From: Taxillus chinensis | Lineage: Eukaryota; Streptophyta; Magnoliopsida; Santalales; Loranthaceae | Length of the DNA stretch: 64,000 nt | Assembly (NCBI GenBank): GCA_023512835.1 | Contig: CM042092.1 | Span: 51,280,400-51,344,399, forward strand | Direction: 5' to 3' | Shown: one piece after another, positions 1 through 64,000 of the stretch | How the letters are laid out: each line of letters starts with the position of its first letter | Position numbering within the stretch: position 1 is the stretch's first letter | The notes under the pieces: generated by a model | The model's database searches: none | What the model saw: the letters and a program-made list of their open reading frames with translations, nothing else | What the model was told of the DNA's origin: nothing | Translations under genes and position numbers: made by a program

Positions 1-2180
1 AGTTCTTCATCTGACCTTCACACGATGAACTTTAAATTCATTCATCATGATCTTTAGGTCTTTGGGATTTTAACTTTCTTATAATGATCTGGTGAATTTT
101 TCCTTGATTCTTAGATTCCTGCCAAAACATAACAAAATTACCATAAAAATCCAAGAAATCCTCTATTCTGGGTTAGGGCATAAAAATCCAATAATATAGC
201 TTAATTGGGTAATAAATGAAGTAAAAGGGTATAAAAATGTACCCAAAGTGGCTCTAAACAGGTTATAAGAATCCCCCCGATCATCTCCTTCACACTTGAA
301 CCTTGCTCATCCCGAGCAAGAATATAAATAAACACTCAAGCAAGCAAATGTGAAAAATAAGAAAGGGAAAACACAAGTGGGATAATGATCAGAAGAAAAC
401 ACATGTAACATATGAGAGTATAATGCATGATTGGAGTGCAGCCCAAAACACTTTGCATTATCTTCTTATACTTGGTCCAACAACTATATACAATCTTGAC
501 CAATACTAAGGAGCAACCAAGCTTAATGAGTTAAAAGCATAACAAGCACTCAAGTATAAGTCTCACACCACTTGCTCTCAATACCTCTAAGGGTTTTCAG
601 ACCTTAGGTAAGTACAAGTAGTCCTTTCTTATGGTGACACATCAAGTCTTACCATAAACCATAGCCTTTGCCACATGCCACCGTGAGAGATGAGTTAGCC
701 AAATGATGCTCAACCTTAAAAGATGTAGGCTCAGAAAGCTCTTTATTTCATTGTAGAGTAGGCACAAAATAAAAGTGGCATAAAACACGGCGCGTACAAT
801 ATGATCACATGGTAGATAGAGGAAAAGTTATCCTTAAAAGATTACATGATAAAACCCTAATTACAACAATTGCCACTATTCTTTTTTCTTTTTCTTTTTC
901 TTTTCTTTTTTGTTGTTTTTTTGTTGTTTTTTTTCTTCCTTTTGTTTTATTTTTCAATTTTTGAAGCGGAGCCAAGATTAAGGAGCATAAACTAGGCTAC
1001 CCACATCACTGCAACATGTAACTCTAGCCTATCTTAACTAGCACAAACTAATCACCATAAGTAGGTTAAACATGTACTTTCTCAAGCTCATCAACCTAGA
1101 GATAAAATTATTCATAAAAGGAAAATTGTGATGATGGACTGTTTCCCTCTAAACACATAACTCAAAGATTTAGCAAGCTTTTGCATTTAATCATGAAAAA
1201 CCTAGTAAGAACCTAAGTGCTAGCTCATGCATATAATGATATCATTCCAAGCATAGAGGAAATAATGGAAAGAGTACAATCATTACTACCAATACATACA
1301 ATATACTTCAAGTATGTACAAGTGCCTCCATCATAAATCATATGCTATCTCCAAAGTCAAACAAGCATTTATGTAATCAATCAATCATGCAATGTATGTA
1401 CAATGGATACATGAAAAACATGCAATCAAACAAAACAAACAAAAACAAAAAAATGTGTAACACTTTCCCCTCCTTCACACTTAAACCAAGGCATGGTCCC
1501 CATGCCAAAAATGAGAGGAAAGTAAGGAGAAGCGTACCAGGGCTAGGCGGGTCGGCTGAAGAAGTAGATAAATTGAACAACCATTTCACAAAGGGCATTA
1601 GGTGGGAGCTTTAGTGTAGAAGTCCAAGTGCCTCCATGGGACTAAATACAGGTGCTCATATAATAACACACAAAAACTCCACAACTGTTGGTATTGGGCT
1701 GCTGAGGAACAACCTGGTGAGGGAAGAGTGGGAGGCGTGAAGATGGAGGATGCGGTCCACTCTGATAGAAGAAACCAAAAGTGTGGAGAGCGTCATTGAT
1801 GTTGGCTACAATGGAATGTTGGAGCGAAGTATGATAGTCATTTGTCTCTGGTTAGGCACAAGAGTTAAACAACTCAATGATCAAGGAGCGAAGGTCGACG
1901 CGTAGAAGCACAAAGTGATTGGTGAAGTGGATTAGAATGAGGATGAAATCAAGAGTAACTCATGGCCTAAAACTAGTGCGACAGGCTTTAATAAATTGTT
2001 GTAAAGTCGAAGCCAGTGTTACTAGGTGATAGGACATGGTAGGCAGTATCTCAGCTTGGCTCCCCAGTGGGAAAAAATCTGGATATCTAGTAATGGTGTT
2101 ACGCAGGGCACACCTAAAGTTTGAGATATTTGCGCTATCAAACCAGTGCCTCTACAAGATTCCCTCAATTATTGCACCTA
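1..2180. other. AT-rich non-coding spacer
   Basis: No reading frame here looks like a protein. The stretch is AT-rich, with a T/C-rich low-complexity run at about 880-958. Short boxes near 280-310 and 1465-1510 (CCTTCACACTT followed by inverted GCTC..GAGC or GCATGG..CCATGC pieces) look like the non-coding flanks of plant Ty3 elements. Because an Athila-type pol follows on the minus strand, this is probably the 3' non-coding part of the same degraded element. That is inference; no LTR end was found. Confidence 0.35.
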
Positions 2181-36217: not shown

Positions 36218-36226
36218 GGGGGGGGT

Positions 36227-36312
<86 letters not shown>

Positions 36313-36600: not shown

Positions 36601-36610
36601 GGGGGTAACC

Positions 36611-39085: not shown

Positions 39086-39514
39086 TGTAATGACCTGTAC
39101 TTTTGGGATGTGGAGTTAGTCACAGTTATGCCCTTTGGGTGGCAATTATTAGGTTTTAGGGAGTTTTTCCCCCACTCTCTTTGGATAGAACACCTTGTAT
39201 GATGTTGATCAAGCAATAGGCAAGATTTGGGCTGCCTAGGGAGGCATACATGGGGTGCACGTCATATGGGGCATATGACGTGCAAGGGTATTAATGCTTG
39301 CCTATCTTCTTCATGATTCAAGGAAGCTTGGGGTGGATTTTCAGAGCATTTGGAGCTCCACGTCATATGGGGATATGACGTGCATTGTGACGTGCAGGCA
39401 TATTTTTGCACCGTCACCTTGGTTTTGTGATTCTAAACATCTTTTCCCAAAGAGGTATGTTGGAATTGTGGATATTTTGGTGTGTATGGATGTGGGAAGG
39501 TCATAGCTTGTTCC

Positions 39515-39573
39515 ATCAAAACTACGTCGTTTTGATGCTAGGATTCACTTAATCAAAACTACGTCGTTTTGAT
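39515..39573. promoter_or_regulatory. Paired palindromic ACGT boxes upstream of LTR TATA
   Basis: Two copies of a 22-base near-palindrome, arms ATCAAAAC and GTTTTGAT around T-ACGT-C, 37 bases apart start to start and ending 11 bases before the TATA box. The same pair is at 48683-48741 and, reversed, at 44879-44937 and 55743-55801. ACGT cores are typical plant bZIP targets; binding here is inference. Confidence 0.65.
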
Positions 39574-39584
39574 GTTGTGTTGTC

Positions 39585-39592
39585 TATATAAG
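39585..39592 (+). promoter_or_regulatory. TATA box of element B LTR
   Basis: TATATAAG, 11 bases after the second palindromic box. It is repeated at 48753-48760 in the 3' LTR. Confidence 0.7.
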
Positions 39593-39644
39593 GAGGAGAA
39601 GCCCTCTGTTTTAGGTTTTAGGGTTTGTTGTTCCACCAGCCGTC

Positions 39645-39646
<2 letters not shown>

Positions 39647-39690
<44 letters not shown>
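39647..39690. repeat. AG microsatellite in 5' LTR
   Basis: About 22 AG units; the 3' LTR has only a short, broken AG run at the same place (48815-48832). The expansion occurred after insertion, or the tract is miscounted. Confidence 0.9.
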
Positions 39691-39695
<5 letters not shown>

Positions 39696-40737
39696 GAGGG
39701 AAGGAGAGCTTCTGGTGGCTGCTGGAGCGTCTTGCGTGGGTGGTCAGAGTCTTGCGTGGAAGTGGGAGCAGGAGGACATACAAGGTAGGGGTTCTGTTCT
39801 TCCTAAATCCTCCTCTGTTCTAGGGTTCTAGGGTAGATTATGGATTATACCTGTTTATATATATATGTAATCCATATAGGTGTGATCTCCTATATGGATG
39901 TTGGCCTTCGATGGCGGTTTTTGATGTATTCTGGTGTTGGATGGTGAGAGCATATTAAGTGTTTGATAAAATGCCTGTGTGAATATGTCTGTGTGAATAT
40001 GCCTAGTATGTGTTTGATTTTATGCCTGTGAAAGTGTGTATGCTACGTGTTTGGTTTAATGCCTGTGTGACCTTGTATGCTGTGTTTGTGGAACCCGGTG
40101 GCTGTGGAAGCCCAGGACTGGAACTGTTAGCCCGTGTGGCTAAGCCTGAGTGGCCGTGGAGATGTTAGCCCGTGTGGCTAAGCCTGAGTGGTCGTGGATA
40201 TGTTAGCCCGTGTGGCTAAGCCTGAGTGGCTGTGGATATGTTAGCCTGTATGGCTGTGGATATGTGTGTGCCGTGTGAATGTGGAATATAACCTGTTTAT
40301 ATCTTATTGTCACTACACTGCACCTGTACACACCCTCATGTAAACGCTAGGAGCATGGGATGGGTTGGGGAGACATGATCCCTACTGAGCTGTGGTTGCT
40401 CACCCCTCCCTCTATGTTGTGTTTTCTTTCAGGAACATACAGGCGTTAGGTGGGACCCCAAGGTGGAAGACCTTATTTACCTTACCATCTTTCATTTATG
40501 TTATTTTGTGGGAATTAATGTAACCCCAGTGGGGGATGGATTGAAAAGAGGATTTTGTTGTAATAAAGACTGGTTTGGATTGTGGATTGCTTTAATGAAC
40601 ATTACTTTCTTGAATGTGTTGTGGATGTTTAAAATGTTATATTCGGGGTTTGTATCTTAACCCCTTTGCCCTCCGTGTGGGTAAAAGGGGAGTCACGTAC
40701 ATGTTTCCTCGGGTTGGAAATCCGGGGCGTGACAATA

Positions 40738-43423: not shown

Positions 43424-45370
43424 TGTCACGCCCCAATTTCCTTCCACTTGGAAATGAGTAGTGACTGCCCATGCCCGCACCCGAAGGGACAAGGGGTTGG
43501 TGCAAGCACCTAAAAAGGACTTCTGGCACGGGTGCTGTCCCAAACCTGCACAACCAGGCTAACATGCCAAGGGGCATGCTCCTGCTCCCAAACCATGCAC
43601 ACAAACACAAATTGAATAACAACATCTCATTTTTATTTCATTTCAAAGACTAAATGTTTATTACAACCCAGTCAGGGAAAAACCTCTATGAAGCCACAAA
43701 TAAAACCAAACCAAATTCCAAACACATAAAACCAGCGTACAACAAAGGAATTAACGTAAAACTCCCAGCCTCAGGGGCCTAGCTCCTCAGCCTTCACCTA
43801 GCTCCTGCTAAACCCTGCAAAAGAATAGTTTATAGGAGGGGTGAGCAAACCATAGCTTAGTAGGGATCCAGTCTCCCCAGACCCGTCCCGCTCTATAACA
43901 TGCATGATATGTGTATGCTTGTGCTCGTGTCGTGCCTAAGGCTAAAGCGAAGAAACATCACCCAGGAAACACTCTTTACCTGAGCCCGCACCGGAGGGCG
44001 AGAGGACACCCCGCCACCACGGCGACATGACATACCATATCCAGGCGAATGTTGCATGGACACCAATGCAACATTTTCCACCCGAGTCAGATATGGTCAA
44101 CCACCTCCTCGGGCGCCATACCTACCCTCAGGAATGGGTGTAGACTTAGCCCACCATCGTGAGTGCTACACCGAGACTCAGGACCACGTCCTAGCCAAAT
44201 CTCAAAGGGGTCCAGCTATTGTGCCTGGCCCATATCTCAACTCAGTCTCAAACAGATCAACGAACAAAGATAAAGCATTACATCTCAACATGTAAACTCA
44301 AGACAAAGATTTACACTATCTCGAAAGGACCAACATGGTCGATACAAGCCAAACACATCAGCCTCATAGGCTTAAAATCAAATACAAATCAAACACAGTA
44401 CACACCAGTCACGTAGGTATATCATCAGACACCCATATACAAGGTCTCACAGGCATTATATTGAACACATGGCATGCAGGCCTTCACAGACATTTTATCA
44501 AATACATAGTGTGCAGGCCTCACAGACATTTCATCAAACACATGGTGGGCATAAACAAACCCAGAAAATCCTCAGGCCAAATTCAACATCAGAATCAACA
44601 GAACATGCCACTGAAGGCCAACATCCATATAGGAGATCACACCTATATGGATTTACATATATATATATAGGTGAATATCCTAGAACAGAGGAGAGTTAGG
44701 AAGAACATGAATCCCTACCTCGACTTTTGTCCTAACCTCCACGCTAGACGCTCCCAACGACGCGAACCACCACGGCAATGCCCGGAGATCCTCTCTCTCT
44801 CTCAACGAATCGCAAAGAAAGAAGAACACAAGAACCCTAAACTCAAACTCAAGCCCTCATTATATAGACACTACCCACATCAAAACGACGTAGTTTTGAT
44901 TAAGTAAATCCCAGGATCAAAACGACGTAGTTTTGATCACACCAGTTAGCACCTTTCCGCACCCATATAGGCCAAAATACTCAGAATTTCAACATGGTCC
45001 TTTGGAGAAAGATCATTAGAATGTCAAAACCAAGGGAACCATGCAAAAATATGGCTGCACGCCAATTTGCACGTGAATTCCCCAATTCACGTGCAACTCC
45101 ATATGCACTCCAAATGCGCTTAAACTTCACCCCTAGCCTCCTTGCATCATTTAGAAGACAACCACACTTGCACGTGAATTGGACCCATTTCATGTGCACC
45201 TCACATACACGTCCGTTTGGCCTGAAACTTCTGTGGTAGATAGAGGACATCATTCTAAGCATCTTTCCTTTTCCACGTGAATTCATTTGAGCCCATTCAC
45301 TAGGTCAAAATCTAGAAAAACTCTACTCAGAAGGCAAAACTGTGACTAACTCAAGGTACGGGTCCTTACA
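43424..45370 (-). mobile_element. Solo Tekay-type LTR in element B RT (1947 bp)
   Basis: The plus strand runs TGTCACGCCCC to GGTCCTTACA. Read on the minus strand it starts TGTAAGGACCCGTACC, like the element B LTR, and contains the same ATATAGGTGTGATCTCC box (about 44631-44650 reversed), the paired palindromes (44879-44900, 44916-44937) and a TATA-like TATATAATG near 44860. The AAGTA duplication on both sides shows a complete LTR with no internal region, meaning LTR-LTR recombination removed the rest. Confidence 0.93.
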
Positions 45371-48253: not shown

Positions 48254-49644
48254 TGTAATGACCCGTACTATTGGGATGTGGAGTTAGTCACAGTTATGCC
48301 CTTTGGGTGGCAATTATTGGGTTTTAGGGAGTTTTTCCCCCACTCTCTTTGGATAGAACACCTTGTATGATGTTGATCAAGCAATAGGCAAGATTTGGGC
48401 TGCCTAGGGAGGCATACATGGGGTGCACGTCATATGAGGCATATGACATGCAAGGGTATTAATGCTTGCCTGTCTTCTTCATGATTCAAGGAAGCTTGGG
48501 GTGGATTTTCAGAGCATTTGGAGCTCCACGTCATATGGGGATATGACGTGCATTGTTACGTGCAGGCATATTTTTGCACCGTCACCTTGGTTTTGTGATT
48601 CTAAACATCTTTTCCCAAAGGGGTATGTTGGAATTGTGGATATTTTGGTGTGTATGGATGTGGGAAGGTCATAGCTTGTTCCATCAAAACTACGTCGTTT
48701 TGATGCTGGGATTCACTTAATCAAAACTACGTCGTTTTGATGTTGTGTTGTCTATATAAGGAGGAGAAGCCCTCTGTTTTAGGTTTTAGGGTTTGTTGTT
48801 CCACCAGCCGTCGCAGAGAGAGTGAGAGAGGGAAGGAGAGCTTCTGGTGGCTGCCGGAGCGTCTTGCGTGGGTGGTCGGAGTTGCGTGGAAGTGGGAGCA
48901 GGAGGACATACAAGGTAGGGGTTCTGTTCTTCCTAAATCCTCCCCTGTTCTAGGGTTCTAGGGTTCTAGGGTAGATTATGGATTATACCTGTTTATATAT
49001 ATATGTAATCCATATAGGTGTGATCTCCTATATGGATGTTGGCCTTCGATGGCGGTTTTTGATGTATTCTGGTGTTGGATGGTGAGAGCATATTAAGTGT
49101 TCAATAAAATGCCTGTGTGAATATGTCTGTGTGAATATGCCTAGTATGTGTTTGATTTTATGCCTGTGAAAGTGTGTATGCTACGTGTTTGGTTTAATGC
49201 CTGTGTGACCTTGTATGCTGTATTTGTGGAACCCGGTGGCTGTGGAAGCCCGGGACTGGAACTGTTAGCCCATGTGGCTAAGCCTGAGTGGCCGTGGAAA
49301 TGTTAGCCCGTGTGGCTAAGCCTGAGTGGCCGTGGATATGTTAGCCCGTGTGGCTAAGCCTGAGTGGCTGTGGATATGTTAGCCTATATGGCTAAGCCTG
49401 TATGGCTGTGGATATGTGTGTGCCGTGTGAATGTGGAATACAACCTGTTTATATCTTATTGTCACTACACTGCACCTGTACACACCCTCACGTAGACGCT
49501 AGGAGCGTGGGATAGGTTGGGGAGACATGATCCCTACTGAGCTGTGGTTGCTCACCCCTCCCTCTATGTTGTGTTTTCTTTCAGGAACATACAGGTGTTA
49601 GGTGGGACCCCAAGGTGGAAGACCTTATTTACCATACCGTCTTT
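48254..49644 (+). repeat. Element B 3' LTR, interrupted (first 1391 bp)
   Basis: Nearly identical to 39086-40489. It contains the palindrome pair (48683-48704, 48720-48741), the TATA box (48753-48760) and the GTTAGCCCGTGTGGCTAAGC repeats (49262-49420). It is cut at CCGTCTTT by the Sirevirus-like element. Confidence 0.93.
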
Positions 49645-49944
49645 TGTTGGATCAAGCCCAGAATTTGGATCATGCTGATAAAGCCCTATGTAATTTGATC
49701 TGAGATCTTTTGTGTTTCTTTGATCATTGCAGAAGATATGTTATTAATCCGGAGATACACTCGTGAGAGCAAAGCTAAGGACAGGATACATAATCCTGAT
49801 CCGGACAAGAGTGAGTGTAGTTAAACACTTGGTAAATAACCAAGTCACCAATACATACGGAATAAGGAACATTCGTGCGGACTAAGAACTTAAAATCTAC
49901 GGATTACGGAATTTGCTCTTAATATCTCAAACGGACTAAGTCAA

Positions 49945-50450
49945 ACTGATGCGGAGTAAGAATCTTGGTCTACAAGGTCGCACGAAGTAAAAGAGTAGAC
50001 ACGGAGCTAAAAAGTTAAGTCTTCCACTCAAGCAAACTAAAGTAAAGAAGACACGGAGTAAGGCATCTGAGTCATTCATACATACGGAGTAAGGAAGTAC
50101 TGATGCGGAATAAGGACCCGAGTATTTATTCGCACGGAGTAAGGAAACCAGATGCGGAGTAAGGAATCCGGACCACTCACTCATGCGGAGTAAGGATGTG
50201 CTAGTACGGAGTAAGCCATCCGATCCTTTAGACTCGCACGGAGTAAGGAACTTACATACGGAGTAAGGAACTTACATGCGGAGTAAGGAAGCACTGATAC
50301 GGAATAAGCACTCCGACCTTCTCATTCACATTGAGTAAGGAAGCGCTGACACGGACTAAGGATTCCAGTACCAAATAGATACGGAGTAAGCAACCACTGA
50401 CACAGAGTAAGGTTTCGAGCTTCATTAGTAACGGAGTAAGGAAAATTACA
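49945..50450. repeat. CGGAGTAAGGA motif array in the LTR
   Basis: About 18-20 copies of ATGCGGAGTAAGGAA or variants (ACACGGAGTAAGG, GCACGGAGTAAGG, TACGGAATAAGC), separated by 8-25 variable bases, all upstream of the TATA box. Sirevirus LTRs are known to carry arrays of short repeated motifs in this place; this motif is different from the ones I recall. Confidence 0.85.
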
Positions 50451-50743
50451 CCGGAACAAGAAGATGTTACTTCAACTTACCGCATTTAAAGTTATCAGCT
50501 CGTGGTGTCCCAATGTAAGACAAACTCGTTGAGAACCTAAAGAATCTTACACGTGGATCACCCGAATATGTGGACACAACTTTAATTATACTTGGGAACT
50601 CACAAAGACACTTATACTCTTCAAACCCAAGATCTTGAGCTCCACAAACCACAGTAGTCAAGGCAGAGAGACTACCGAGGAATAGTTAGTGCTGAACGCA
50701 TTCCGGAACTACAAGTTCCAAGGTTGTCTCTTAGGAATGTTTG

Positions 50744-50750
50744 TATAAAT
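50744..50750 (+). promoter_or_regulatory. TATA box of Sirevirus-like LTR
   Basis: TATAAAT after the motif array, about 310 bases before the LTR end. Confidence 0.6.
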
Positions 50751-51061
50751 ATTCATACTTGTACATTTAAAAGTGTGTGCGAGCGAGCCTGAATCAATCC
50801 TGTGTATGCACAAGAGTTCAAAGACATAATATAGGCTAGTGTGTGAATCCTTTTTGTAAATAGAGTGTAAGAGAGTTTTGCTTCTATTTTGTTGTATTTA
50901 TCTTTTGATAATAAAACAAAATACTTCCACTATCTGGTTATCTTCCGCAGTGATTCTATCACTTAACTAGATAAGTGTTTGTGTCATAAGAGAATAGAAA
51001 GAGTTTCGATAAGAGCCTATTCACCCCCCTCCCCCCTTTTAGGCTCCAAGGGACCATCAAG

Positions 51062-51073
51062 TGGTATCAGAGT
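51062..51073 (+). promoter_or_regulatory. Primer-binding site of the Sirevirus-like element
   Basis: TGGTATCAGAGT two bases after the LTR end; it complements initiator tRNA-Met except for the last base. Confidence 0.87.
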
Positions 51074-51119: not shown

Positions 51120-53420
51120 ATGGCCGAAGAAAGCAGTATGCTATTCAACACTCGCCTTAACTCCGGAGGTACACAAGAGCCCATCCCGAATCGAAGCAGC
51201 AGTGAAAACGTCGACCCACCTCAACCTGCTGCTGCCTCCATTGCTCAACCACGGAGTTCTGGTTTTACTCTGACAAAACCGCCCAAATTCACACCTGAGC
51301 TTTTCTCCCAGTGGAAAGCTCGCATGAAGATGTTTATGGTATGCCATGATCATCTCATGTGGCCCTGTCTTAATCAGGAGATTCCAATTCCGATGACTAT
51401 CGGAGAACACGGAGTTAGAAGGGCAAAGACGGATGCCGAACTTACCAACGATGAAAGAGCCTGGCAGTGCGCTAGCGAAAAGGCTCTGGATTATGTTACA
51501 TCGTCTTTGGATTCCGAGGCTTTCACGGACGTCTAGGGCTGCACATCAGCAAAAGCTATCTGGGATAAACTGACAATCCTCTATGAGGGAAGTCAGTCCC
51601 AGATGCAAAACGTGATATGTGCTCTCAGACAGAACTTTGAGAGTTTCAATCACAAACCTAGCGAATCCCTTGAGAGTATCTATCGGAGATTCGGCAAGCT
51701 CATTCTAGAGCTAAAAACTGTCAATGAACACTACACTCAATCTCAAATCAATGACAAGTTCTTTCGATCCTTGCCGGATCGCTACTACTCCAAGCAGCTC
51801 CAGATGCAAGCTGACAAAAACTGGCCGTTTACTGCCCTTGAAGAAATATACGGAGAGCTTCGAACTCATGAGGTCAGATTCAGATACACTAACAGTGATG
51901 AGAAAATAGCTCGGAAAGAAAAACGGGTAACTCTCAAAGCTACGGAATGCTCCAGTAATCATCAAGAGGATGATACGGATGAGTCAGATAATTCTGACTC
52001 AGACGTAGAAGAGGAAATAGCTCTTCTTGTTAAATCCTTTGAACGATTCCTTCGGAAAAGTAGAAAAGGATTCAGAAGAGGCTCCTCATCATCCAGAAGG
52101 AAGGAACGATCGGAGTCGAGCTCCCAAGAATGCTTTAATTGTGGGAAACCCGGTCACTGGGCCAAGGAATGCAGATCCAAATCTAAGACGGCAGAGAAAA
52201 GTGACAAGGTTACTCCTCGACGTACCACCTCAGACAACAGCAAGAACAAGAGGAAGGCGCTCGTGACAAAGTACTTCAGTGGCTTGGAAGAAGAGGAGGA
52301 ATCCTCGGATGATGAGCCAACTTCTAAGCCGAACGTCTGCCTCATGGCAAATACTGAGGTACCTTCTATCTCTGAACTCATGAGTAAAATAGAATCTCTT
52401 ATTACTAAACGTGATCATGAAAAGAATGAGAGACTAATAATTACTCAAATGTACAAAGATATGGAAAGTCAGAATAAACGTCTTGAATTTACTATTACTA
52501 GACTTGAAAAAGATATAGCTGACTTCAGAGGAAAAGAAGCTTGGTATCACGATCTAAGGGCTGAAAATCATCTTCTAAATACCAATCTCTCAGGCCTTAA
52601 AGTTATTGTAAAAAGACTCAAGAATGAACTTGAACAAGAAAAGGAAATAAACCGTAAGTGGCTTAAATCAGGAGAAATAGCCTATTCATTTAGGACTGAT
52701 CCAGATAATATTCGAGTCAAACCTGGCCTAGGCTCAGAATCATCAACCTCCAATGCTCAAGCTACTGAGTGTCCTCCGGATTTCACTCCAAAACTAACCA
52801 ACTTATATCTTGTAAGTACGTCTAAACCGTTGGATGGTTTCATTTCAGGTGGCACCATAGTTTATGACTGTGGAGTCGAGGCTGTTACTGCACTTCCCGA
52901 AGTAGTAGCACCCGTAACTAATGATGAAGGGAAGGCTACTGTAGTTAAAGCCAAAACTGTAGCACCCAAAAAGAAAGGAAAGGCTAAGGATAACGTATCT
53001 AGGGCCAAGAGTGTGTCACCCAAACACAATGGATTAGGCCACAAGGAACAGAGTAGAAAGTCTGTAAAATCTAAGAGACCTGTATCCCTTGTTTGTACTC
53101 CGCATTATAGTGTCTGTTCCATCTGTAGGGAAATAGGTCATTATCACTATGAATGTTGGAGTTTATCTGATAACTGGCTTTGTAATCAAATTCGTAGCAA
53201 TAAAGATCAGTTCAATAAAAAGGGTTCTTCGAGCAAAACAAAATCTAAACCTCAAAGGAGTATCTCTCCCAAGATAACCCAAATAAAAGAAGCAGCTGAA
53301 ACTAACAAATTAAAGTCAACTTGGAGAGCTAAAAGTCCTAGCAAAGTCAAATTCGGAACTATTGACATTACTGCTGTTCTTTCTAACCGCCCGAAACAAG
53401 TTTGGGCACCAAAAGTGTAA
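51120..53420 (+). pseudogene. Sirevirus-like gag with one in-frame TAG
   Basis: The start is the ATG at 51120 (MAEESSMLFNTRL); the frame is open further up only through LTR and leader. The capsid domain (UBN2-type) includes PPKFTPELFSQWKARMKMFM, AIWDKLTILYEG and LESIYRRFGKLILELKTV. A TAG at 51534-51536 interrupts it; the frame continues unchanged. The first knuckle is CFNCGKPGHWAKEC (about 52130-52172). Next come an acidic and basic linker, a likely coiled coil (about 52375-52660), and a second, unusual C-terminal knuckle CSICREIGHYHYEC (about 53116-53160). Total length about 766 codons, long as in Sireviruses. The TAA at 53418-53420 separates it from pol in the same frame. Gag forms particles and binds RNA. 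Confidence 0.88.
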
Positions 53421-54499
53421 ACTGCTATTTTTCAGGAGCATCTCTGGAATGTACTGCCAGATCATTTGAAGTTAAAGATCAATCAAAGCAAGTGGATCCT
53501 CGATAGTGGATGCTCCAGACATATGACGGGTGATCAGACTCTGCTTGTAGAAGTTAATGAAAAACGAGGTCCATCCGTTTCATATGGCGACAACAGCAAA
53601 GGAAAGACTGTCGGGTATGGCACTTTAACCAACGGCTGTGTATCAATCACTAGAGTTGCACTAGTCGAAGGTTTGAAGCATAATTTGCTAAGTGTCAGTA
53701 ATTTATATGACAAAGGATTTACTGTTTCCTTTATGTCCAACACCTGTACAGTAAGGGAAAACTTATCCGGAGATGTTAAGTTATCCGGATCAAGAGATGG
53801 GGACATCTACTCAGTGGTCTTAAGAAATAATTTTTCTGACCCTATATACTTCCTCACTAAAGCTTTAGATGGAGATAGTTGGTTATGGCACAAGCGATGT
53901 GCACATTTAAACTTTAAGACACTATCTAAGTTAGCATCACTTGATCTTGTCACTGGTCTACCTAAACTCAAATACTCCAGAGACACTCTGTCGAGAATGC
54001 CAACTTGGCAAACAGACCAAACATAGCTTTAAGAGCAAATCAGTTAACTCAATATTTGCTCCTCTGCAACTTCTTCATATGGACCTCTGTGGTCCTATTT
54101 CTGTTCCTTCGCTGGCTGGTGCGAGATATACCCTTGTGGTTATCGATGATTTCATCCAATACACATGGGTAATGTTCCTGAAATCAAAGGATCAAACTTT
54201 TGAACATCTTGTAGATCTTTTCAACTGGATAAGCAACTCACAAGGACTGAGCATAAAGTGCATCAGGAGTGATCATGGTACAGAATTTGATTTTTCAGAA
54301 ATGAGATCATATTGTTCTGAACAGGGCATTCAGCACGACTTCTCTACGCCCAGAACTCCACAACAAAATGGGGTAGCTGAGCGCAAGAATCGTACTTTAG
54401 TCGAGGCTAGCAGATCTATGTTAGCAGGGGCAACGCTTCCTCTCAGTTTATGGGCTGAAGCTGTGTCCACTGCCTGCTATGTTCAGAATAGAACTCTAA
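53421..54499 (+). pseudogene. Sirevirus-like pol part 1: protease and integrase start
   Basis: The protease segment is SKWILDSGCSRHMTGD with the catalytic Asp in DSG, then LKHNLLSVSNLYDKGFTVSF. The integrase zinc-binding region has WHKRCAHLNFKTLSKL and CRECQLGKQTKHSFKSK. A one-base shift near 53985-53995 separates the two histidines from the two cysteines. The integrase core begins [24 protein letters not shown] and includes the second Asp (SDHGTEF) and the Glu (GVAERKNRTLVEA). At 54500 it is cut by an LTR. The stretch 54015-54499 is repeated at 56355-56839. Confidence 0.87.
54015..54499. repeat. 485-bp direct repeat flanking the inserted LTR, copy 1
   Basis: GACCAAACATAGC to GAACTCTAA, equal in length to 56355-56839 and about 97% identical by eye (roughly 14 differences, mostly transitions). 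It lies immediately left of the LTR. Confidence 0.93.
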
Positions 54500-56354
54500 T
54501 GTTACGCCCCGAATTTCCAACCCGAGGAAACAGTTACGTGACTCCCCATTCACCCACACAGAGGGCAACGGGGTTGGATCACTGTATGCCACACAAGCAA
54601 AACTAACAATTACAATAAATCAAACAAGCTACATCTTTATTTAATATCAAACACCAAAGGTTCACAAACCAACCAGGTTCCTTACTACAATTCAATCCCT
54701 TAGTACATTTCCCCCCTTGGGGTTACATCAATTATAAAATCACATTTACTGAAGTGAACAATAAAACGAAGATGGTCTTCCACCTTGGTGTATCCACCTA
54801 ACGCCTGTAAGATCCTGGAAAACAAGCAAACACAGTAGGAGGGGTGAGCAACCACAGCTCAGTAGGGATCAAGTCTCCCCAACCCTTCCCATGTTCCTAG
54901 CGGCTACATGCATATGCACAGGTGTAGTGACGTGGCAGTATTAGAAAAAGAATAAAACATTCCACACAAGCGGGCGTAACCCCAGCCCCAGTCACACTGG
55001 CTAACAAACATCTCAAGCAAGTAATTTAACCGCCTCTTCAGGGCCTCGATTTAACCGCCTCTCAGGCAAAGTAGTTTAACCGCCTCTTCAGGCCACTGGT
55101 TTAACCGCCTCCCAGGCAAAGTAATTTAACCGCCTCTTCAGGCCAAATACCACAGTCATGCACACAACACACACTACGGTCACTTAAGTATAAAACCAAA
55201 CACTTGGTGTGCACCAATTCACAAGTGCACAAACCCAGCCATTCAGGCAATAGAACAAACACCCAGCATGCATACATACACCAAATCACAAGTCCAGCCA
55301 CACAGGCATATTACCAAACATGTAATAGGCATATACATACAGCTATATTCACACAGGCATTTCATCAAACATATAGCATGCAACAACAGAATCACACCAA
55401 AATGCCATTGAAGGCCAACATCCATATAGGAGATCACACCTATATGGATTACATATATATATATATATAAACAGATATAATCCATAATCTACCCTAGAAC
55501 CCTAGAACAGAGGAGGATTTAGGAAGAACAGGACCCCTGCCTCAAGTAAAATGCAACAACACCGCAATACTGTTCCCACACCGAACGCTGTCCGCCCACG
55601 AGACACCGATCACCCACGCAGGACGCCCGGCAGCAAACAGGAGCTCTCCTTCCCTCTCTCTCTCTCTCTGCGACGGCTGGTGGAGCAACAAACCCTAAAC
55701 CTAAAACAGAGGGGCTTCTCCTCCTTATATAGACAACACAACATCAAAACGACGTAGTTTTGATTAAGTGAATCCCAGCATCAAAACGATGTAGTTTTGA
55801 TCGAACAAGCTATGACCTTCCCACATCCATACACACCAAAATATTCACAATTCCAACATGGTCCTTTGGGAAAAGATGATTAGAATGACAAAACCAAGGT
55901 AACCATGCAAAAACATGCCTGCACGCCAATTTGAACGCCAATTCCCCAATTGGCGTGCAGCTCCAAATGCACTCAAACTTCACCCCAAGCCTCCTTGCAT
56001 CTTGTAGAGGTCTGAGAAGCAAAAATATGCTTGCACGTGAAATGGGTGAATTCACGTGTAGCTCCAAATGCTCTGAAATTTCTGTGGTAGATAGAGGACC
56101 TCATTCTAAGCATCTTTTGTTCTTGCACGCCAATTGTTTGAGGCCATCTACTATACCAAAAGTGAGCTCCAAAATCTGCCAAAATAGCTTAAAACCGCAT
56201 GTATATGCATAGCATCTTCCTAGGGCATAAATGTACGTTATCACTTGTCACATGCACCGCTCAAAAGTCCCCTCTTGGACTCATCTCTTACCTCAAACTT
56301 GTGCACCAACATCCAAGGTGTTTGTGGTTAACTTCTTACACACGAGTCATTACA
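54500..56354 (-). mobile_element. Tekay-type LTR inside Sirevirus-like integrase (1855 bp)
   Basis: The plus strand runs TGTTACGCCCCG to GAGTCATTACA. On the minus strand it starts TGTAATGACTCG and is related to the element B LTR: the ATATAGGTGTGATCTCC box near 55425-55445 reversed, the palindrome pair 55743-55764 and 55780-55801, and GTTTAACCGCCTC repeats at 55025-55140. There is no 5-base target duplication; instead both sides carry 485 bases of the same integrase sequence. Confidence 0.9.
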
Positions 56355-56839
56355 GACCAAACATAGCTTTAAGAACAAATCAGTTAACTCAATATCTGCT
56401 CCTCTGCAACTTCTTCATATGGACCTTTGTGGTCCTATTTCTGTTCCTTCGCTGGCTGGTGTGAGATATACCCTTGTGGTTATCGATGATTTCACCAGAT
56501 ACACATGGGTAATGTTCCTGAAATCAAAGGATCAAACTTTTGAGCATCTTGTAGATCTTTTCAACTGGATAAGCAACTCACAAGGACTGAGCATAAAGTG
56601 CATCAGGAGTGATCATGGTACAGAATTTGATTTTTCAGAAATGAGATCATGTTGTTCTGAACAGGGCATTCAGCACGACTTCTCTGCACCCAGAACTCCA
56701 CAACAAAATGGGGTAGCTGAGCGCAAGAATTGTACTTTAGTCGAGGCTGACAGATCTATGTTAGCAGGGGCAACGCTTCCTCTCAGTTTATGGGCTGAAG
56801 CTGTGTCCACTGCATGCTATGTTCAGAATAGAACTCTAA
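56355..56839. repeat. 485-bp direct repeat flanking the inserted LTR, copy 2
   Basis: Partner of 54015-54499. This copy is continuous with the rest of pol. Confidence 0.93.
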
Positions 56840-59142
56840 TAAATAAATCTACCATGAAAACACCCTATGAGATGTGGAGAGGACGAAAGCCTTCAATTTT
56901 ACATTTTAGAGCTTTTGGGTGTACGTGCTATATATTGATAAATGGCAAAGAAACCCGGAATAAATTTGAACCAAAATCTGATGATGGGATTTTTGTCGGG
57001 TACTCATTACATAGCAAGGCTTATCGGGTCTTTAATAGAAAACTTTTTAAAGTTGAAGAATCTATCCATGTGACCTTTGATGAAACTAATCTTGATTGGT
57101 CAAAAGTTGCTTCTTCAAGTTCAAATGTAAAGGTCCCGGACAGCAACATCGACTATTCAAAGTTTATGAATGTTCCTGTTACACATTCTGACCAACCACG
57201 TTTCATCAGCGAGGCACAAAGAAATTATATGGATGATACTACGGATGATTCGGACTCAGGACTACCATTAAGCTCCGGACATACTCCCTCAGATACCCAA
57301 AATTCTGGAGCACCTTCAAGCCCGTTCGGACCAGTTAACACTGAAAGAAACAGTGTTGAAGAACCACCTAGTTCTACCATACCTTCTAATACGGAAACAT
57401 CTGGCCCGGAAGAAGCTTTACCAACAGATATACCTGAACCACCTAATTTGGCAGAGCTTCAAATTATTCAAGATCAACCATCAAATGCACAGAATTACAG
57501 ATGGACCCGAAACCATCCCTCAGATCAAGTGATTGGTGATCCTACTGCTGGTGTAAGAACAAGAGCAGCCACCTTCAACATGTGTCTTTACACGTGTTCT
57601 CTATCTCAAATAGAACCAAAGGTGGTAGATGAAGCTCTTCAGGATTCTAATTGGATAGAAGCCATGCAAGAAGAGCTGAATCAATTTAAAAGAAATAATG
57701 TGCGGACTCTAGTACCAAGGCCTAAGTCTCAGCGAGTCATTGGAGTTAAATGGGTGTTCCGGAACAAGCTTGATACGGATGGAATAGTAATCCGGAACAA
57801 AGCCAGACTGGTAGCTAAAGGATATCGTCAAGAAGAAGGAATAGACTACGATGAGACCTTTGCTCCGGCAGCAAGACTTTAGGCAATCCGCATGTTTCTG
57901 GCATATACTTCATATGAAAACTTCATAGTTTATCAAATGGACATCAAGAGCGCATTCCTGAATGGAGATCTTCAAGAGGAGGTGTACGTTGAACAACCTC
58001 CAGGTTTCATTGAACCCAAGGCTGGACATCTGGTTTACAAATTACGGAAAGCCTTGTATGGATTGAAGCAAGCTCCAAGAGCCTGGTACGACACACTTTC
58101 GGAATTCTTACTTGCTCACAACTTTCAAAAAGGGAAGATTGACACCACGCTATTCTTACGGAAAGAGAAAGGACATACTCTGATCGTATAGATATACGTG
58201 GATGATATCATTTTCGGATCAACTAATCCGAAACTTTGTAATGAATTCGCCAAGTTGATGACTGGCAAGTTTCAGATGAGTATGATGGAAGAACTGTCTT
58301 ACTTCCTTAGGATTGAAATCAAACAACTGAAGGAAGGGACCTTCATAAACCAAGCTAAGTATACTCGCGACTTAATCAAGAAGTTTGGTATGGAAGGTTC
58401 ATCTCCCGTCAAAACTCCAATGCCAGTCAATGCCAAGTTAGACCCAGATGTTGATGGCAAATCAGTGAATATGACTGAGTACAGAGGGATGATTGGATCC
58501 TTGCTGTATCTTACAGCAAGTCGCCCGGACATAATGTTTGCAACTTGCATCTGCGCAAGATATCAGGCAAATCCCAAAGAGTCTCATATGCTTCATGTAA
58601 AATGGATATTAAGGTATCTCAAAGGGACAATTAATCTGGGACTCTGGTACCCAAAAGAGTCCAACTTCGCTTTATCCAGATATTCTGATGCTGATTTTGC
58701 TGGGTGTCGCATAGAAAGGAAAAGCACCAGTGGTACATGCCAATTCCTTGGAAACGGATTGATCTCTTGGTTTAGTAAGAAGCAGAATTCCGTATCAACA
58801 TCTACCGCTGAAGCGGAATATATAGCTGCTGGGAGTTGCTGCGCTCAGCTTCTCTGGATGCAAAGTCAACTTACTGACTACGGCTTCAACATGACATCTG
58901 TTCCACTTTACTGTGACAATACCAGTGCTATTGCTATCAGCAATAATCCCGTCATACATCCAAAGACAAAACATATTGAGGTCAGGCATCATTTCATTCG
59001 TGATCATGTTCTTGAAAAGCACATATCCCTGGAACATGTTGCTACTGAAGATCAACTGGTGGATATACTTACAAAGCCCCTACCTGATGTAAGATTTTCT
59101 GAATTTCTTCTCAAATTGGGTATGCTTGACTTTTCTGCATAG
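56419..59142 (+). pseudogene. Sirevirus-like pol part 2: integrase, RT, RNase H (two in-frame TAGs)
   Basis: One frame from integrase to the end of RNase H. Integrase: [31 protein letters not shown], then the [21 protein letters not shown] and [13 protein letters not shown] blocks. A variable Ser/Pro-rich linker follows. [47 protein letters not shown], then TAG at 57880-57882, MDIKSAFLNGDLQEEVYVEQPPGF, ALYGLKQAPRAWYD, then TAG at 58189-58191 and the active site IYVDDIIFGS. RNase H: YSDADFAGCRIERKSTSG, STAEAEYIAAGSCCAQLLWM, YCDNTSAIAISNNPV and HHFIRDHV. Apart from the two stops it is complete and well preserved. Confidence 0.9.
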
Positions 59143-60798
59143 CTTCTCACCTGTTATCCATCAGTAGTTACTTTCAGAACATGCATTGTTGTACTTCATG
59201 GTTAGTGATAGACACTGAACTTCATGTTTATGCTCTGATATTACTCACTAAGTTCATTTGGGAGGATGTTTGCGTTTCCCGACTGAAGTCATTTAAGCAA
59301 ACATGATTAAAGTTTATATGATTAACCTCATTCTGGTTTCATAATCTTAATTTCCACTGATCACCACATGACAAATGTCTGCTCATTTAGATTACTCTAT
59401 TAACATGTATAGTTGAAGAAATGAAATGGGTTAGCTCGGAATGCCTAGTGGATGAATACACAATCGCAGTCTGATCACCTTCTGAAGTACAGTTTCCTAA
59501 AAAGATAGACCATGCTGAATTTCTTTAAGCCGGAAAGGTCTACCGAGAGGATTGCACAATCTACGGGGGAGAAAATGCTTTCAAGTAATACCCCCCATAT
59601 ATGTCTCATGACCTCTTTCCTGACTGTCTATTTGAAGGGGAGCCCTTCATTGAGAGGATCGAATGATCTACGGGGAAGCCTAAGCTTCATCTATTACCTC
59701 AGTAATAACCCCCTAATATGTCTCAGATACTCCCTCCTCTGAACCTTTACTTCCGGATCTGACTGGACATGCGTTGTTGAAACAGAATTGCGGCATGCTT
59801 GGATATATTTTTTTTCTTCAACCATGCATTTTAATTGGATAATCAACTGCTTGCTTTTGACATGTGTCCACTTCTTCATTTTTCACTCATGAATCCTAGT
59901 TTGGTCAAATCATATGATTTTTAATTAATCTTAGCTACGTCGTTCAGCAGGACGGTTTCGCTATGTTGACCTATATGAACTTGTGTATTTATTATCTGAC
60001 ATATGCCCTGATTCAGTCACATTGATCATTCTCTAGTCTATATATGTCTATTACATTCTTTGTAATGCACAAGTTCTGCTACTCATTAGTTTGGATTATA
60101 TAGCTCTTCACTGACTAATTTCTCCTATCCGTACTAATCCTTGCCTGTTAAGCTTTTGTACTTTTAGCTTATTTTTGTGAAGCTACAGGTTCAGATTTTC
60201 TTTGCACCCTTATCTATAAATCCAGTCCATAGTCTTGGATTTGAAGTGTAGTGGTACTTCTCTTCTCTTCGACTTATTGACAGCAAAGGAATCTACTTTT
60301 CTCTCACCGCACTCTGTTACTACGGACACAATCTACTTTTCATCCGGATACTCGTTACTCGACTATCGCTGATTCCAGATGATTGTCGGTTCATTCCTCC
60401 GGACTCCTGACACTATCAAATTGCGATAATCCATGTCTTATTTTATATCGCGTGCTTTTGAGGAGGAATAATGATGATTCATTAAATGCATGTCTCGGGA
60501 TGTACACACTTCCCCTGGAAGGCAAACAGCTGTTATCCTTACTTGGTCATGCCGTCTCCATGTCATCTTTTAATTCGGAGGCACACCAATATCAAGACTA
60601 ATGACATCAGCCTGTCAAGCGGTCTACTGTTTCACTCACCAAATTCTTAGACCCGCTGACATTCACGGACTCGATCTTATATATTCTGGTCCTTCCTGCG
60701 CAACACGAGTGTTACCCTTTTCAAATCCCTAAAACTCTCGTTGCTCCTTCAATCCCTAAGACCTCGCCTTCCCTCTCGCCCTTCAACTTTCATCTGCA
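59143..60798 (+). other. Post-pol non-coding region of the Sirevirus-like element
   Basis: About 1.65 kb without a supported protein. It holds an imperfect direct repeat (about 59534-59610 and 59650-59725), each unit reading GAGAGGAT..TCTACGGGG followed by TAATACCCCC or TAATAACCCCC and ATATGTCTCA; the G-rich words resemble extra polypurine tracts, which Sireviruses are known to multiply. A TATA-like CTATAAATCC lies at about 60214-60223. The last 500 bases become richer in C and T and may be a 5' untranslated region for the downstream ORF. Confidence 0.6.
60215..60221 (+). promoter_or_regulatory. Possible internal TATA box upstream of the extra ORF
   Basis: TATAAAT in a CTATAAATCC context about 580 bases before the ATG at 60799, followed by C/T-rich sequence. 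It could be an internal promoter or a chance word. Confidence 0.3.
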
Positions 60799-62937
60799 AT
60801 GGCACCCAGAACCTCTCTTTTCGGCGTCAATCCCGGCCATCTGGTCGATTGGAGCGCTGTCTCCGACCCTCCGGACTGGTTTTCCCATATTCGCCCTCTT
60901 CTAGAAGCCTCTCACATACTTGATTTGATCTCCAATCCTGTCGATCTTCTTATAGATGACATTCTCGAGTATTACCTACGGATCCACTGTACCACCGACT
61001 CCATCATCTCCTATGTTTGCGGTGAATCCATCCTCATTACCCCCGACGTTCTTCGTGCTGCTCTCAGTCTACCCCCCGGTGAATCACAACGCCCCGATGC
61101 CAATCCCATGGCGGCTTCTATGGGTTGCATCTATAAAGGCAAGGAATACAAGGTGAAGTCCTTCCAAGGTCGCTATCGCTGTATGGCGATCATACTGAGT
61201 CGATGTTTACTGGCTCGCACTTCCGCTCTGGACTCCATTCCGTACGATCTTCTTCTGGCCGTGTACGGCATTTTCGAAGGTCTTCTGATGGACTGGGGGA
61301 CGTTTTTGTTCCGACTGCTGCAGACTGGACCCAAGAATTATCCCTTCGGGCGCATCCTAAGCATTGTGTTCCGACATCTTCATCCGGACCATTTCGCCCG
61401 CTCTGACGTTGTTCCCTTTCCTCCGGCTTATTATCTTCGCTATATTACGCCTAATGGGAATATGACAGCCCACCATCCCTCTGGCGCTCTCCACCTTCTC
61501 CCTGCCACGGAACAACAAGGCAGTTCTGTTGGTGACCCCTCCGACAGCCATGGCCCTACTGTCAGCTCAGCTCACCGATCCTCCTGGATTCGGTCCGTTG
61601 CTGCACCCTCCATCTCTCGGGCCTCCCAGCATAGCGTCCGTGCCGATCCCTCCGAGGTTGCGGGGCCATCTCAGCGCAGTGTCCCTAAAGCTGTTTCCTC
61701 AGCCCCTTCTGCTGCAGATGTCCCCACTCCCTCCACTTCCGCTGTTGTTGCCGCAGTTGATACCGCCGTTGCTGCCGTAATTGCTGATGTCCCGGACTCT
61801 ATTCCGGAAGCTCCTTTGCGTCCCCTACCTCAACCCCGAGATTACCTTGACCATCTCTCCTCCAACACCTTAACGGACCTTTGGCTCCGTTTCAGCCTTG
61901 CCCACACCGCCTCCATTCCTGACACCGATCTCCGGGTGTTTTACACTCGTCATACTCAATCCCCGGAGACCATGATCATCTGGAATTTGGACCAAGGCTT
62001 TCTTGCGCTGGCCTCCATTCCAGATGTGCCGTTCCCTAACCCCTCCAGCCCGGTCCATGCGGCACAGAGTCCTTCCCCTGCTAAGGCTGGACCTTCTTCT
62101 CCTGGTGTTGACCTATCTGGTCAAAGCGGGTTCGCTGCTCCGGATGCCTCTGCTGCTTCAGATGCCCCTTCTGCTGCTGCTGCTGATACTCCTGCGGACT
62201 TCTCTGCCTAGCGCACTCCAGCTCCTGTTCATGCGGGGGAGTCCTCCAAAGCTCTAGAGTTGGCCCTTGAGCGTGCTTCTTTTGGCACGGTCCACTCCGA
62301 CGCTGTGCTCTCCGCCCAGCTGGACCGCCACGCCCAAGCTCAAAGCGCCCAAATATCCGCCATCGCCGCCAAGGTTGATGCTCTTGGCGCCCAACTCCTC
62401 TCCGCCCTCACCGACTCCTCCACCTCCATGGAACAGAAGATGGACCTAGTCGCCTCGTCCGTCCACTCCTTGTCTACCTCCTTCGCGGACCTGGCGCACA
62501 CGATGGCTCGCCCTCCCGTTACTCCCCGACAATCTGCCAAACCGAGGGAGAGAGTGTCATCTGATCCTTCTGCTCCTGCATCACATTCATCCACTCGTGC
62601 TGAGAAGCGGCCTGCCTCTTCATTGCTTCAGGGAGTTCAAATTCCCAAACGTAGCCGCTTCTCTCAGCCAAGCTCCTTGACTGCAGCTCTTCCTCCATCC
62701 TCTCCATCCGCAGCTGACACCTTCCTCCCATCATACGCGGCGCGTGACCCTCTTGATGCGGACGGAAGCGTGCGTAAGGCAATGATGTCCCCTATGCTGC
62801 GTCTTCTGCCGAGAGAAGATGTCTCTCTGACCTGTACCCCTTCTCCCCGGACGACATTCGGACCCTTTGTTCGAAGAAAGGCCTCTTTACAACAGACGAC
62901 ATTGACAACTTCTCTAGGGCTGCTAAAATGGAGATGA
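60799..62937 (+). CDS. Extra ORF of Sirevirus-like element, N-terminal and central part (one in-frame TAG)
   Basis: The start is the ATG at 60799 (MAPRTSLFGVNPG). Residues about 25-215 form a globular region (PDWFSHIRPLLEASHI, ESILITPDVLRAALSLPPG, GRYRCMAIILSRCLLARTSA, YDLLLAVYGIFEGLLMDWG) that reminds me of the plant transposon-associated domain often called Transposase_32; this is a weak call. Residues 220-470 are rich in Pro, Ala and Ser. A TAG at 62209-62211 is followed in the same frame by heptad-like sequence (SAQLDRHAQAQSAQISAIAA, then MEQKMDLVASSVHSL), a predicted coiled coil, and a basic Ser/Pro segment. The frame leaves the protein between about 62700 and 62850, and the C48 domain continues in another frame. 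It is GC-rich, unlike pol. No transmembrane segment or signal peptide is seen, so it is not an obvious env. Confidence 0.7.
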
Positions 62938-63509
62938 GGCTGTTTCCATCTCTGTACAAGGACGGCCACTTGTTTGAAGTTCTGCCGTGCTGGAATGAGG
63001 GCTATCTTCCCAGTATAGATGTCATTCAGTCCTTTATCGACGGAACTGCTGAGGATAGCAAGCCATGGAGAACTGTCTCAACTATCCTCATTCCGTACCG
63101 GATCATGTCGCCACATTTCATGATGGCTATCTTCATGATTCAATCCAAACAGATGATTTTGATTGATTCTCATCAGATTGTAGAGCAGTATGTAAGAAAG
63201 AATCAATGGGAACCACTGTATCTCAGGTTGACTGAAGCTGTGAAGAAAGCCGGATTATATGAAAAGTTGGGCATCACTCCTTTGAGACCAACTGAGAAGC
63301 TGAAGGTGACATTACGGCGCAAGAAGCAAGTGCCACAACAGCCAGATGGAGATAGCTGCGGGGCCTTTGTCTGTTACTTCATTAAGTCATTCTTAAGTGT
63401 GGACAAATCTTGGAGCCAACACACCACTTATTCGATGAAGCAGACAATGGAGCTTAGAGAGAAAGCAACAACAATGATCTTCAAGTATAGTAAGCCTTAT
63501 GTACATTAA
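62790..63509 (+). CDS. Ulp1/C48-type cysteine protease domain at the 3' end of the element
   Basis: The frame is open from about 62790 (NDVPYAASSAERRCLSDLYP) through the Met at 62928 to the TAA at 63507-63509. Counting from that Met, the C48 catalytic set is His63 (SPHFMMAIFMI), Asp80 (MILIDSHQ), Gln138 and Cys144 (VPQQPDGDSCGAFVCYF). The residue after His is Phe instead of the common Trp. Ulp1-family enzymes cut SUMO or related modifiers from proteins; here the substrate is unknown. The domain lies 140 bases before the 3' LTR, with no stop inside it, while gag and pol have several. It could be a captured host or DNA-transposon gene; MULE and CACTA elements are known to carry such domains. 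Identification of the domain is firm; its role is inference. Confidence 0.8.
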   Translation, partial: PYAASSAERRCLSDLYPFSPDDIRTLCSKKGLFTTDDIDNFSRAAKMEMRLFPSLYKDGHLFEVLPCWNEGYLPSIDVIQSFIDGTAEDSKPWRTVSTILIPYRIMSPHFMMAIFMIQSKQMILIDSHQIVEQYVRKNQWEPLYLRLTEAVKKAGLYEKLGITPLRPTEKLKVTLRRKKQVPQQPDGDSCGAFVCYFIKSFLSVDKSWSQHTTYSMKQTMELREKATTMIFKYSKPYVH

Positions 63510-63638: not shown

Positions 63639-63652
63639 TAATTGGGGGAGAT
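63639..63652 (+). promoter_or_regulatory. Polypurine tract of the Sirevirus-like element
   Basis: TAATTGGGGGAGAT directly before TGTTGGATC of the 3' LTR. Confidence 0.82.
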
Positions 63653-64000
63653 TGTTGGATCAAGCCCAGAATTTGGATCATGCTGATAAAGCCCTATGTA
63701 ATTTGATCTAAGATCTTTTGTGTTTCTTTGATCATTGCAGAAGATATGTTATTAATCCGAAGATACACTCGTGAGAGCAAAGCTAAGGACATGATACATA
63801 ATCCTGATCTGGACAACAGTGAGTGTCGTCAAACACTTGGTAAATAACCAAGTCACCAATACATACGAAATAAGGAACATTCGTGCGGACTAAGAACTTA
63901 AAAGCTACGGATTACGGAATCTGCTCTTAATATCTCAAACGGACTAAGTAAAACTGATGTGGAGTAAGAATCTTGGTCTACAAGGTCACACGAAGTAAAA
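63653..64000 (+). repeat. Sirevirus-like 3' LTR (first 348 bp; continues past window)
   Basis: TGTTGGATCAAGCCC onward matches 49645-49992 with roughly a dozen differences, for example GATCTGAGATC in the 5' copy against GATCTAAGATC here. It ends at the window edge before the motif array. Confidence 0.92.

Follow-up and report, generated by a model that had tools for sequence, protein, structure and literature searches.

The 64,000-nucleotide stretch of the Taxillus chinensis genome analysed here (C9:51280400-51344399 of 520.9 Mb; hereafter the window) carries a copia retrotransposon with a third gene, termed env-like below, between pol and the 3' long terminal repeat (LTR). This gene belongs to the standard gene set of a high-copy element and occupies the same place in independent insertions. 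It is predicted, with a probability of roughly 0.72, to be a two-part protease gene, in which a divergent N-terminal domain (N-domain) and a low-complexity middle part precede a C48 (Ulp1-like) domain in front of the 3' LTR, and whose product would remove protein tags in the service of counter-silencing or integration.

The PF02902 profile matched the frame 62778-63506 of the window copy (E = 6.1e-7, 29.9 bits, above the curated cut-off of 20.7), in agreement with an earlier note on this DNA, which had proposed a C48 domain with the residues His, Asp, Gln and Cys. These are His113 (63114), Asp130 (63165), Gln188 (63339) and Cys194 (63357), in the order expected in the C48 family. The adenovirus protease profile Peptidase_C5 (PF00770) gave E = 0.014, under its cut-off, and the best sequence matches among the solved structures of the PDB were weak ('Membrane thiol protease', E = 0.043; Dub1, 0.053; SENP1, 0.13; adenain, 0.53). 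A stop-free run of 243 codons in 62778-63509 was reached by none of 1000 dinucleotide shuffles, while gag and pol are interrupted by TAGs at 51534, 57880 and 58189, as had been noticed earlier; a second run of 483 codons in 60760-62934 was also reached by 0 of 1000 shuffles. The description of the extra gene as one open reading frame (ORF) fails for the window copy, which has a TAG at 62209-62211 and switches from the frame of 60799 to that of the C48 domain somewhere within 62778-62937. Since this copy is broken twice, the whole protein could not be made from it by plain reading. The supposed GC-richness of the gene applies to its N-terminal and middle parts (0.56) and not to the C48 part (0.44). 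In 62212-62934, weak Pfam matches to NPV_P10 (E = 0.12) and Mis12 (E = 0.29) are at most compatible with a coiled coil, and no MULE-type Pfam match was found in the three pieces of the window gene, the N-terminal part included. A bipartite nuclear-localisation-like pattern in the middle part was absent from the ORFs of relatives scanned with the same pattern.

Copies of the gene were collected by a protein search of the host genome with the C48 piece. Among the matches listed (the best 150 of 9604 candidates), there are at least 150 copies on C1 to C9, the window's own included, all of them at least 88% identical and each spanning at least residues 6-241; many are stop-free, and the stop-free rows report open frames of up to 969 amino acids (aa), as listed. 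When 20 copies were taken at intervals down this list, the 3' LTR followed the C48 domain directly, from its first base, in 13, and in four others the LTR began at its base 433-459, which represents a diverged or shortened LTR start. The end of the LTR was readable in 15 copies, 14 of which have 14 different 15-base flanks; in the fifteenth (L038), the LTR is followed by AATGGTATCAGAGC, a primer-binding site (PBS). The LTR of L038 is perhaps common to two internal regions in a tandem arrangement. Upstream of the C48 domain, a match to the N-terminal part was present in all eight copies probed (shortened or shifted in L054, L056, and L057), and reverse transcriptase (RT) or RNase H was present on the same strand in six (L054, L057, L061, L063, L064, and L065); the L062 stretch gave no RT/RNase H match, and L056 was probed no further. 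The placement between pol and 3' LTR in many independent insertions, on which the earlier note had staked its idea, was thus observed.

The same two-part gene also occurs outside the window family. In a PF02902 profile search of the host genome, all of the best 150 of 4308 candidates scored above the cut-off, and 10 kb was fetched around each of 20 of these loci, picked at intervals down the list. In 16 of the 20, the C48 domain is preceded on its strand by a relative of the window N-terminal part (23-29% identity over 107-264 aa), which is missing in L013, L018, L023, and L029; as a control, E < 1e-4 was obtained with 0 of 100 shuffled queries, and the reversed query was likewise unmatched. 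Upstream on the same strand, seven loci have copia RT/RNase H (L014, L015, L021, L023, L024, L026, and L028; these pieces are 56-84% identical) and two have gypsy RT-RNase H-integrase (L030 and L031, by tblastn, and in L030 by Pfam too); the other 11 have no pol on the C48 strand within the stretch examined. A second, divergent Sirevirus lineage, SireB, consists of 11 loci (L015, L016, and L020 to L028), six of which have copia RT/RNase H in the stretch, while five were placed by the C48 tree. All 11 have two to five exact AGGGGGAG tracts between the C48 domain and the 3' LTR, and no more than one in the 5.3 kb preceding the C48 end. From the 10 kb examined per locus, we infer that the gypsy loci L030 and L031 are 'Athila-like'. 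Locus L013 has a 1092-aa open frame (4605-7880, minus strand) with a C-terminal C48 domain (E = 3.5e-22) and no match to the element queries within 10 kb; it probably represents a ULP gene of the host.

A tree of 24 C48 rows, from which L017 and L029 were left out (their C48 was seen by PF02902 only), separates the window family (4 rows, 100/100) and SireB (13 rows including L018 and one L019 C48, 100/99). Gypsy L030 groups with the other L019 C48 and L032 (98/98), gypsy L031 groups with a broken C48 relic at the left of the window (100/99), and the copia-type L014 forms a long branch separate from all of these; long branches make the deeper nodes uncertain. Over these divergent rows, the catalytic His is kept in 24 and Asp, Gln, and Cys in 23 each, and the residues are retained at about 25% identity across the window family, SireB, and the gypsy loci. 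The N-terminal part of gypsy L030 is 27% identical to that of the window over 217 aa (E = 6e-25). On the strength of these alignments, the env-like gene is homologous along both parts to genes of SireB and of Ty3/gypsy elements, and the 'env-like' gene of this host genome is a conserved protease gene common to two superfamilies. The earlier note held that the window lineage had gained the protease; since SireB and two gypsy loci carry the same gene, it is rather older than that lineage or was exchanged.

The N-terminal part had been linked to PF20167, and the profile matched it at E = 0.2, under the cut-off. In the N-terminal ORFs of four relatives, one region of the profile was matched in L025 (E = 2.3e-4), L027 (0.028), and L030 (0.043) and was not matched in L028; the best of these scored 21.5 bits against a cut-off of 45, and neither the window nor any relative exceeded it, so the link is weak. 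As to the globular N-terminus, supposed at the same time, the window copy matches this profile only at the E value given, but the distant relatives mentioned above do align with the N-terminal part. As a side observation, the WC-rich (Wolframin cysteine-rich) Pfam family was matched under its cut-off in the N-terminal parts of L027 (2171-3136, E = 0.0033) and L025 (7012-7809, E = 0.0015).

Codon comparison points to constraint on the protease. For 21 window-family copies (210 pairs) from the list ranked by protein similarity, the pooled nonsynonymous (dN) and synonymous (dS) divergences of the C48 domain are 0.037 and 0.164, and their ratio of 0.227 lies below 1, as had been anticipated (wrong frames, 1.04 and 1.33). 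The corresponding polymorphism ratio (pN/pS) is 0.204 for variants in at least two copies and 0.461 for singletons, which is the pattern of a gene kept during movement and decaying after insertion. His, Asp, and Gln are intact in 21/21 copies and Cys in 19. The SireB loci, which were picked by the general profile and not by likeness to their own members, gave dN/dS values of 0.165 for the C48 domain (11 copies; wrong frames 1.33 and 1.58) and 0.309 for the N-domain (10 copies; wrong frames 0.83 and 1.19). The true frame was shift 0 for the SireB N-domain and shift 2 for its C48, because the first base of the stretch is the second of a codon in the ORF 4224-5339; L023 was left out of the N-domain set, and L018 and the L019 C48 at 4839-5159 were left out of the selection and tract sets. 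Judged by these ratios, the protease part bears the mark of purifying selection.

How the gene might work can be proposed as follows. A separate message would be made for the env-like gene, and its translation would yield a protein about 900 aa long, whose N-terminal and middle parts would carry the protease to its target; there, the C48 domain would act as a cysteine protease that cleaves behind the terminus of a ubiquitin-like tag, SUMO being the likeliest. Within the nucleus, proteins of the host or of the element would lose such tags, which would weaken silencing of the element or improve its integration. That the C48 protein is a tag-removing protease is reasonably probable, and SUMO or ubiquitin-like tag removal is the best guess at its activity. 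Counter-silencing as the benefit to the element is put forward tentatively; it is the leading guess because DNA transposons have genes, VANC and the Ulp1-containing KIU, that lift silencing of their kin (PMC13317346).

Several observations weigh against this proposal. Where cellular SUMO proteases have His-Trp, as does a host-like row of the tree (HW), His-Phe is present in the window family, which may thus act on a different substrate. The catalytic Cys is replaced by Tyr in two of the 21 window-family copies, three of the 21 have a stop within the C48 domain, and three of the 20 sampled copies (L041, L049, and L052) lack a 3' LTR beginning beside it. The dN of the window family is lowered because its copies were drawn from a ranking by protein similarity, a bias that the wrong-frame control leaves in place. 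In six window-family copies, no selection is seen on the N-domain, whose ratio of 0.68 does not differ from those of its wrong frames (0.72 and 0.74), and the ratio for C48 is 0.39 (wrong frames 0.64 and 0.94); L054, L056, and L057 had been removed from the original eight, being unaligned at the offset and having only parts of the N-terminal part.

In the main alternative, which is unlikely, the C48 domain would be a processing enzyme of the element, cutting Gag, Pol, or its own env-like polyprotein and not host tags. Adenain is the polyprotein-processing protease of adenovirus, and its profile is touched by the window domain (E = 0.014, under the cut-off, with adenain chains at E = 0.53); the gene also adjoins the particle genes and is retained under selection. 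However, pol already has a protease region (Pol_BBD), and the C48 domain is nearer to PF02902 (6e-7) than to PF00770 (0.014).

A true envelope or movement protein, namely a fusion or cell-to-cell factor in which the C48 domain is secondary, would suit the position of the gene, which is that of the env-like gene of Sireviruses and Athila (PMC7264820, PMC3414828, PMC6317226). This is improbable, since no convincing membrane helix was seen by hydropathy in the window frames and the strongest constraint falls on the protease part. The highest 19-residue hydropathy is 1.74 in the window frames, in an Ala/Val-rich stretch with Asp, and 1.97 in a frame of one relative (L019:4422-5246). By hydropathy, a general measure and no dedicated predictor of membrane helices, a membrane protein seems unlikely. 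A passenger is just as improbable, namely a ULP gene of the host or of a DNA transposon that was captured a single time and hitchhikes without use to the element. MULE and Ginger DNA transposons are known to carry C48 domains (PMC13317346, PMC2836005), and plant LTR elements do hold captured genes (PMC7264820), but the low dN/dS and the conserved catalytic residues in two lineages, together with a two-part gene common to copia and gypsy loci, argue otherwise. Finally, a nested DNA transposon or chance insertion in the window copy alone, for which nothing was found in favour, is rejected as practically excluded, because there are at least 150 copies, and in 13 of the 20 sampled the C48 domain stands before the purine tract and 3' LTR at unrelated sites (four more have a shortened LTR start), with pol upstream in six of the eight probed.

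A wider and rather doubtful conjecture is that the 'envelope-like' gene of plant LTR retrotransposons is no envelope gene but one ancient protease cassette of an N-domain and a C48 domain, evolving very rapidly as a whole, inherited by or exchanged between Ty1/copia Sireviruses and Ty3/gypsy Athila-like elements, and removing SUMO or a related tag to counter silencing. Such a cassette would be the retrotransposon counterpart of the KIU and VANC anti-silencing genes of DNA transposons, and its divergence would explain why surveys split env-like genes into unrelated groups.

The coordinates of the element are collected in the table below; the RNase H frame end at 59142, the ATG at 60799, and the 3' LTR start at 63653 all stand as located earlier. 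Alignment of the two LTRs gave 97.0% identity (1369 matches, 43 mismatches, and 23 gap columns; Kimura two-parameter distance 0.031). The matching 5-bp TCTTT target duplications at both ends favour a single insertion, and the alternative that its halves are two insertions joined by recombination was rejected. Pfam matched Pol_BBD in pol, and an adjoining DSGCSRHM stretch is presumably the aspartic-protease signature. The LTR-like insert in pol reads TGTTACGCC...ATTACA and lies between two direct copies of the integrase region (54012-54500 and 56352-56840, 489 bp each, 96.9% identical), which resemble a target duplication, yet are far too long for one. Relatives of this insert (72-90%) occur at 35175-35928, 39272-40737, 44581-45310, and 48440-49624, the last on the minus strand directly beside the copia 5' LTR, and short ones at 29931-30017 and 43833-43889.

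Features of the copia element, its env-like gene, and a C48 relic in the window
Feature	Position	Strand	Remarks
Target-site duplication TCTTT, left copy	49640..49644	.	right copy abuts 3' LTR outside the window, L009 5485-5489
5' LTR	49645..51059	+	1415 bp; C-rich stretch, then CA, at end
LTR/PBS junction, Sirevirus-type, AGTGG + TATCAGAGT	51060..51073	+	one mismatch to published PBS TATCAGAGC (PMC2829016)
gag	51120..53420	+	TAG at 51534-51536; Retrotran_gag_2 and zinc knuckle in the piece beyond the TAG (Pfam)
pol pieces	53421..59142	+	beta-barrel/protease region, pre-integrase, integrase, RT; several stops; RNase H end by position
LTR-like insert interrupting pol	54501..56351	+	flanked by 489-bp integrase-region copies; separate from the env-like gene
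Linker, pol to env-like gene	59143..60798	+	1.66 kb
Env-like gene, N-terminal part	60799..62208	+	ATG at 60799; maybe distant PF20167 relative; then in-frame TAG 62209-62211
Env-like gene, middle part	62212..62934	+	frame of the N-terminal part; possible coiled coil
Bipartite nuclear-localisation-like stretch KRPASSLLQGVQIPKRSR	62605..62658	+	pattern match only
C48 (Ulp1-like) protease domain	62778..63509	+	frame different from N-terminal part; stop 63507-63509
Polypurine tract TGGGGGAG	63643..63650	+	one mismatch to published octamer AGGGGGAG
3' LTR, initial part	63653..64000	+	extends past the window to L009 5484; 1432 bp in total
Broken C48 relic	1549..2142	-	64% identical to gypsy L031 C48; one piece matches PF02902 at E = 4.2e-6

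The element had been called a Sirevirus-like copia, and most of the marks tested support the name. The window junction, CA followed by AGTGG and TATCAGAGT, differs by one mismatch in 16 from the published CA + A[T/G]TGG + TATCAGAGC (PMC2829016), and a C-rich TTCACCCCCCTCCCCCC precedes the LTR end, as seen by eye and not compared with the published motif itself. About four AGGGGGAG tracts per element are another Sirevirus mark (PMC2829016); the window element does not show this repetition, having the terminal TGGGGGAG only and no exact octamer on its plus strand. Judged by these motifs, the window element is Sirevirus-like but lacks the multiple tracts, which SireB has.

Elsewhere in the window, the C48 relic lies about 470 bp 3' of an apparent Athila-type gypsy gag-protease remnant (2613-4689, minus strand), recognised by eye, in which Pfam matched only RVP_2 (E = 0.011, under the cut-off). 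A 571-aa ORF (23719-25434, minus strand) matched DUF7745 (E = 3e-49) and the plant mobile domain (E = 8e-11); it is a 5' additional ORF on the gag side of an apparent gypsy element running to 16477. The stretch 36074-36637 is extremely G-rich with poly-Gly frames (GC skew 0.57 in 36001-37000) and is possibly low-quality sequence.

Among known proteins, cellular ULP/SENP, Dub1, and adenain, which we take to form clan CE, have the His-Asp-Gln-Cys set in common with the window C48, and no solved relative falls below E = 0.04. Protein database searches with the N-terminal part (7999 candidates scored) and the C48 part (119) gave no match at E <= 0.001, while the same database holds at least 8000 RT/RNase H relatives, many named plant proteins among them. 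The silence more likely comes from divergence, the shared-word rule, and length limits than from a lack of plants; full-length relatives of about 900 aa lie outside the length range for the 243-aa C48 query. Scans of viral contigs confirmed no relative.

Within the literature searched, no account was found of copia or gypsy elements whose env-like gene encodes a C48 protease, although supplements (e.g., the list of eORF domains in PMC6317226 Additional file 4) might name PF02902. The one Sirevirus passage of the review PMC13317346 concerns small interfering RNA. Ulp1 domains in mobile elements and Sirevirus env-like eORFs are known; a C48 domain as the env-like gene of LTR elements appears new within that literature. 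A recognisable enzyme domain would give the puzzling plant 'envelope-like' genes a testable job, and it defines a biochemical question (is SUMO, ubiquitin, or Gag cleaved?) and a genomic one (do further env-like groups regarded as 'unrelated' represent this gene too?).

According to previous studies, env-like eORFs are present in 74% of SIRE elements and fall into 19 groups with little mutual similarity and unclear function (PMC6317226), and Sirevirus env-like genes have transmembrane and coiled-coil domains (PMC3414828). The Sirevirus eORF-3'F resembles the window gene in its place from pol to 3' LTR, sense strand, and high divergence (PMC6317226); unlike the window gene, the eORFs are described without mention of a C48 protease in the available portions of PMC6317226 and PMC3414828. 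The Athila-type 3' additional ORF (PF20167 / PF03078) shares the place and the weak PF20167 similarity, and the gypsy loci L030 and L031 have the window-type N-terminal part and C48, whereas the 487-aa Athila-type ORF of sunflower is described, in the portion of PMC11728184 available, with Transposase_32 only and no protease. Mobile-element Ulp1 domains are also found in Ginger1 DNA transposons and NeSL/Utopia non-LTR retrotransposons (PMC2836005, PMC4640811), where, in the portions available, they belong to the transposase or RT protein of animal elements, with no LTR and no env-like slot. The KAONASHI/KIU genes belong to MULEs without terminal inverted repeats in Arabidopsis, with similar genes in grapevine, melon, and rice, and elements with KIU cause related elements to become hypomethylated (PMC13317346). 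Like the window gene, they are mobile-element genes with a Ulp1 domain; they reside in DNA transposons, whereas the window gene lies inside LTR elements at a constant place.

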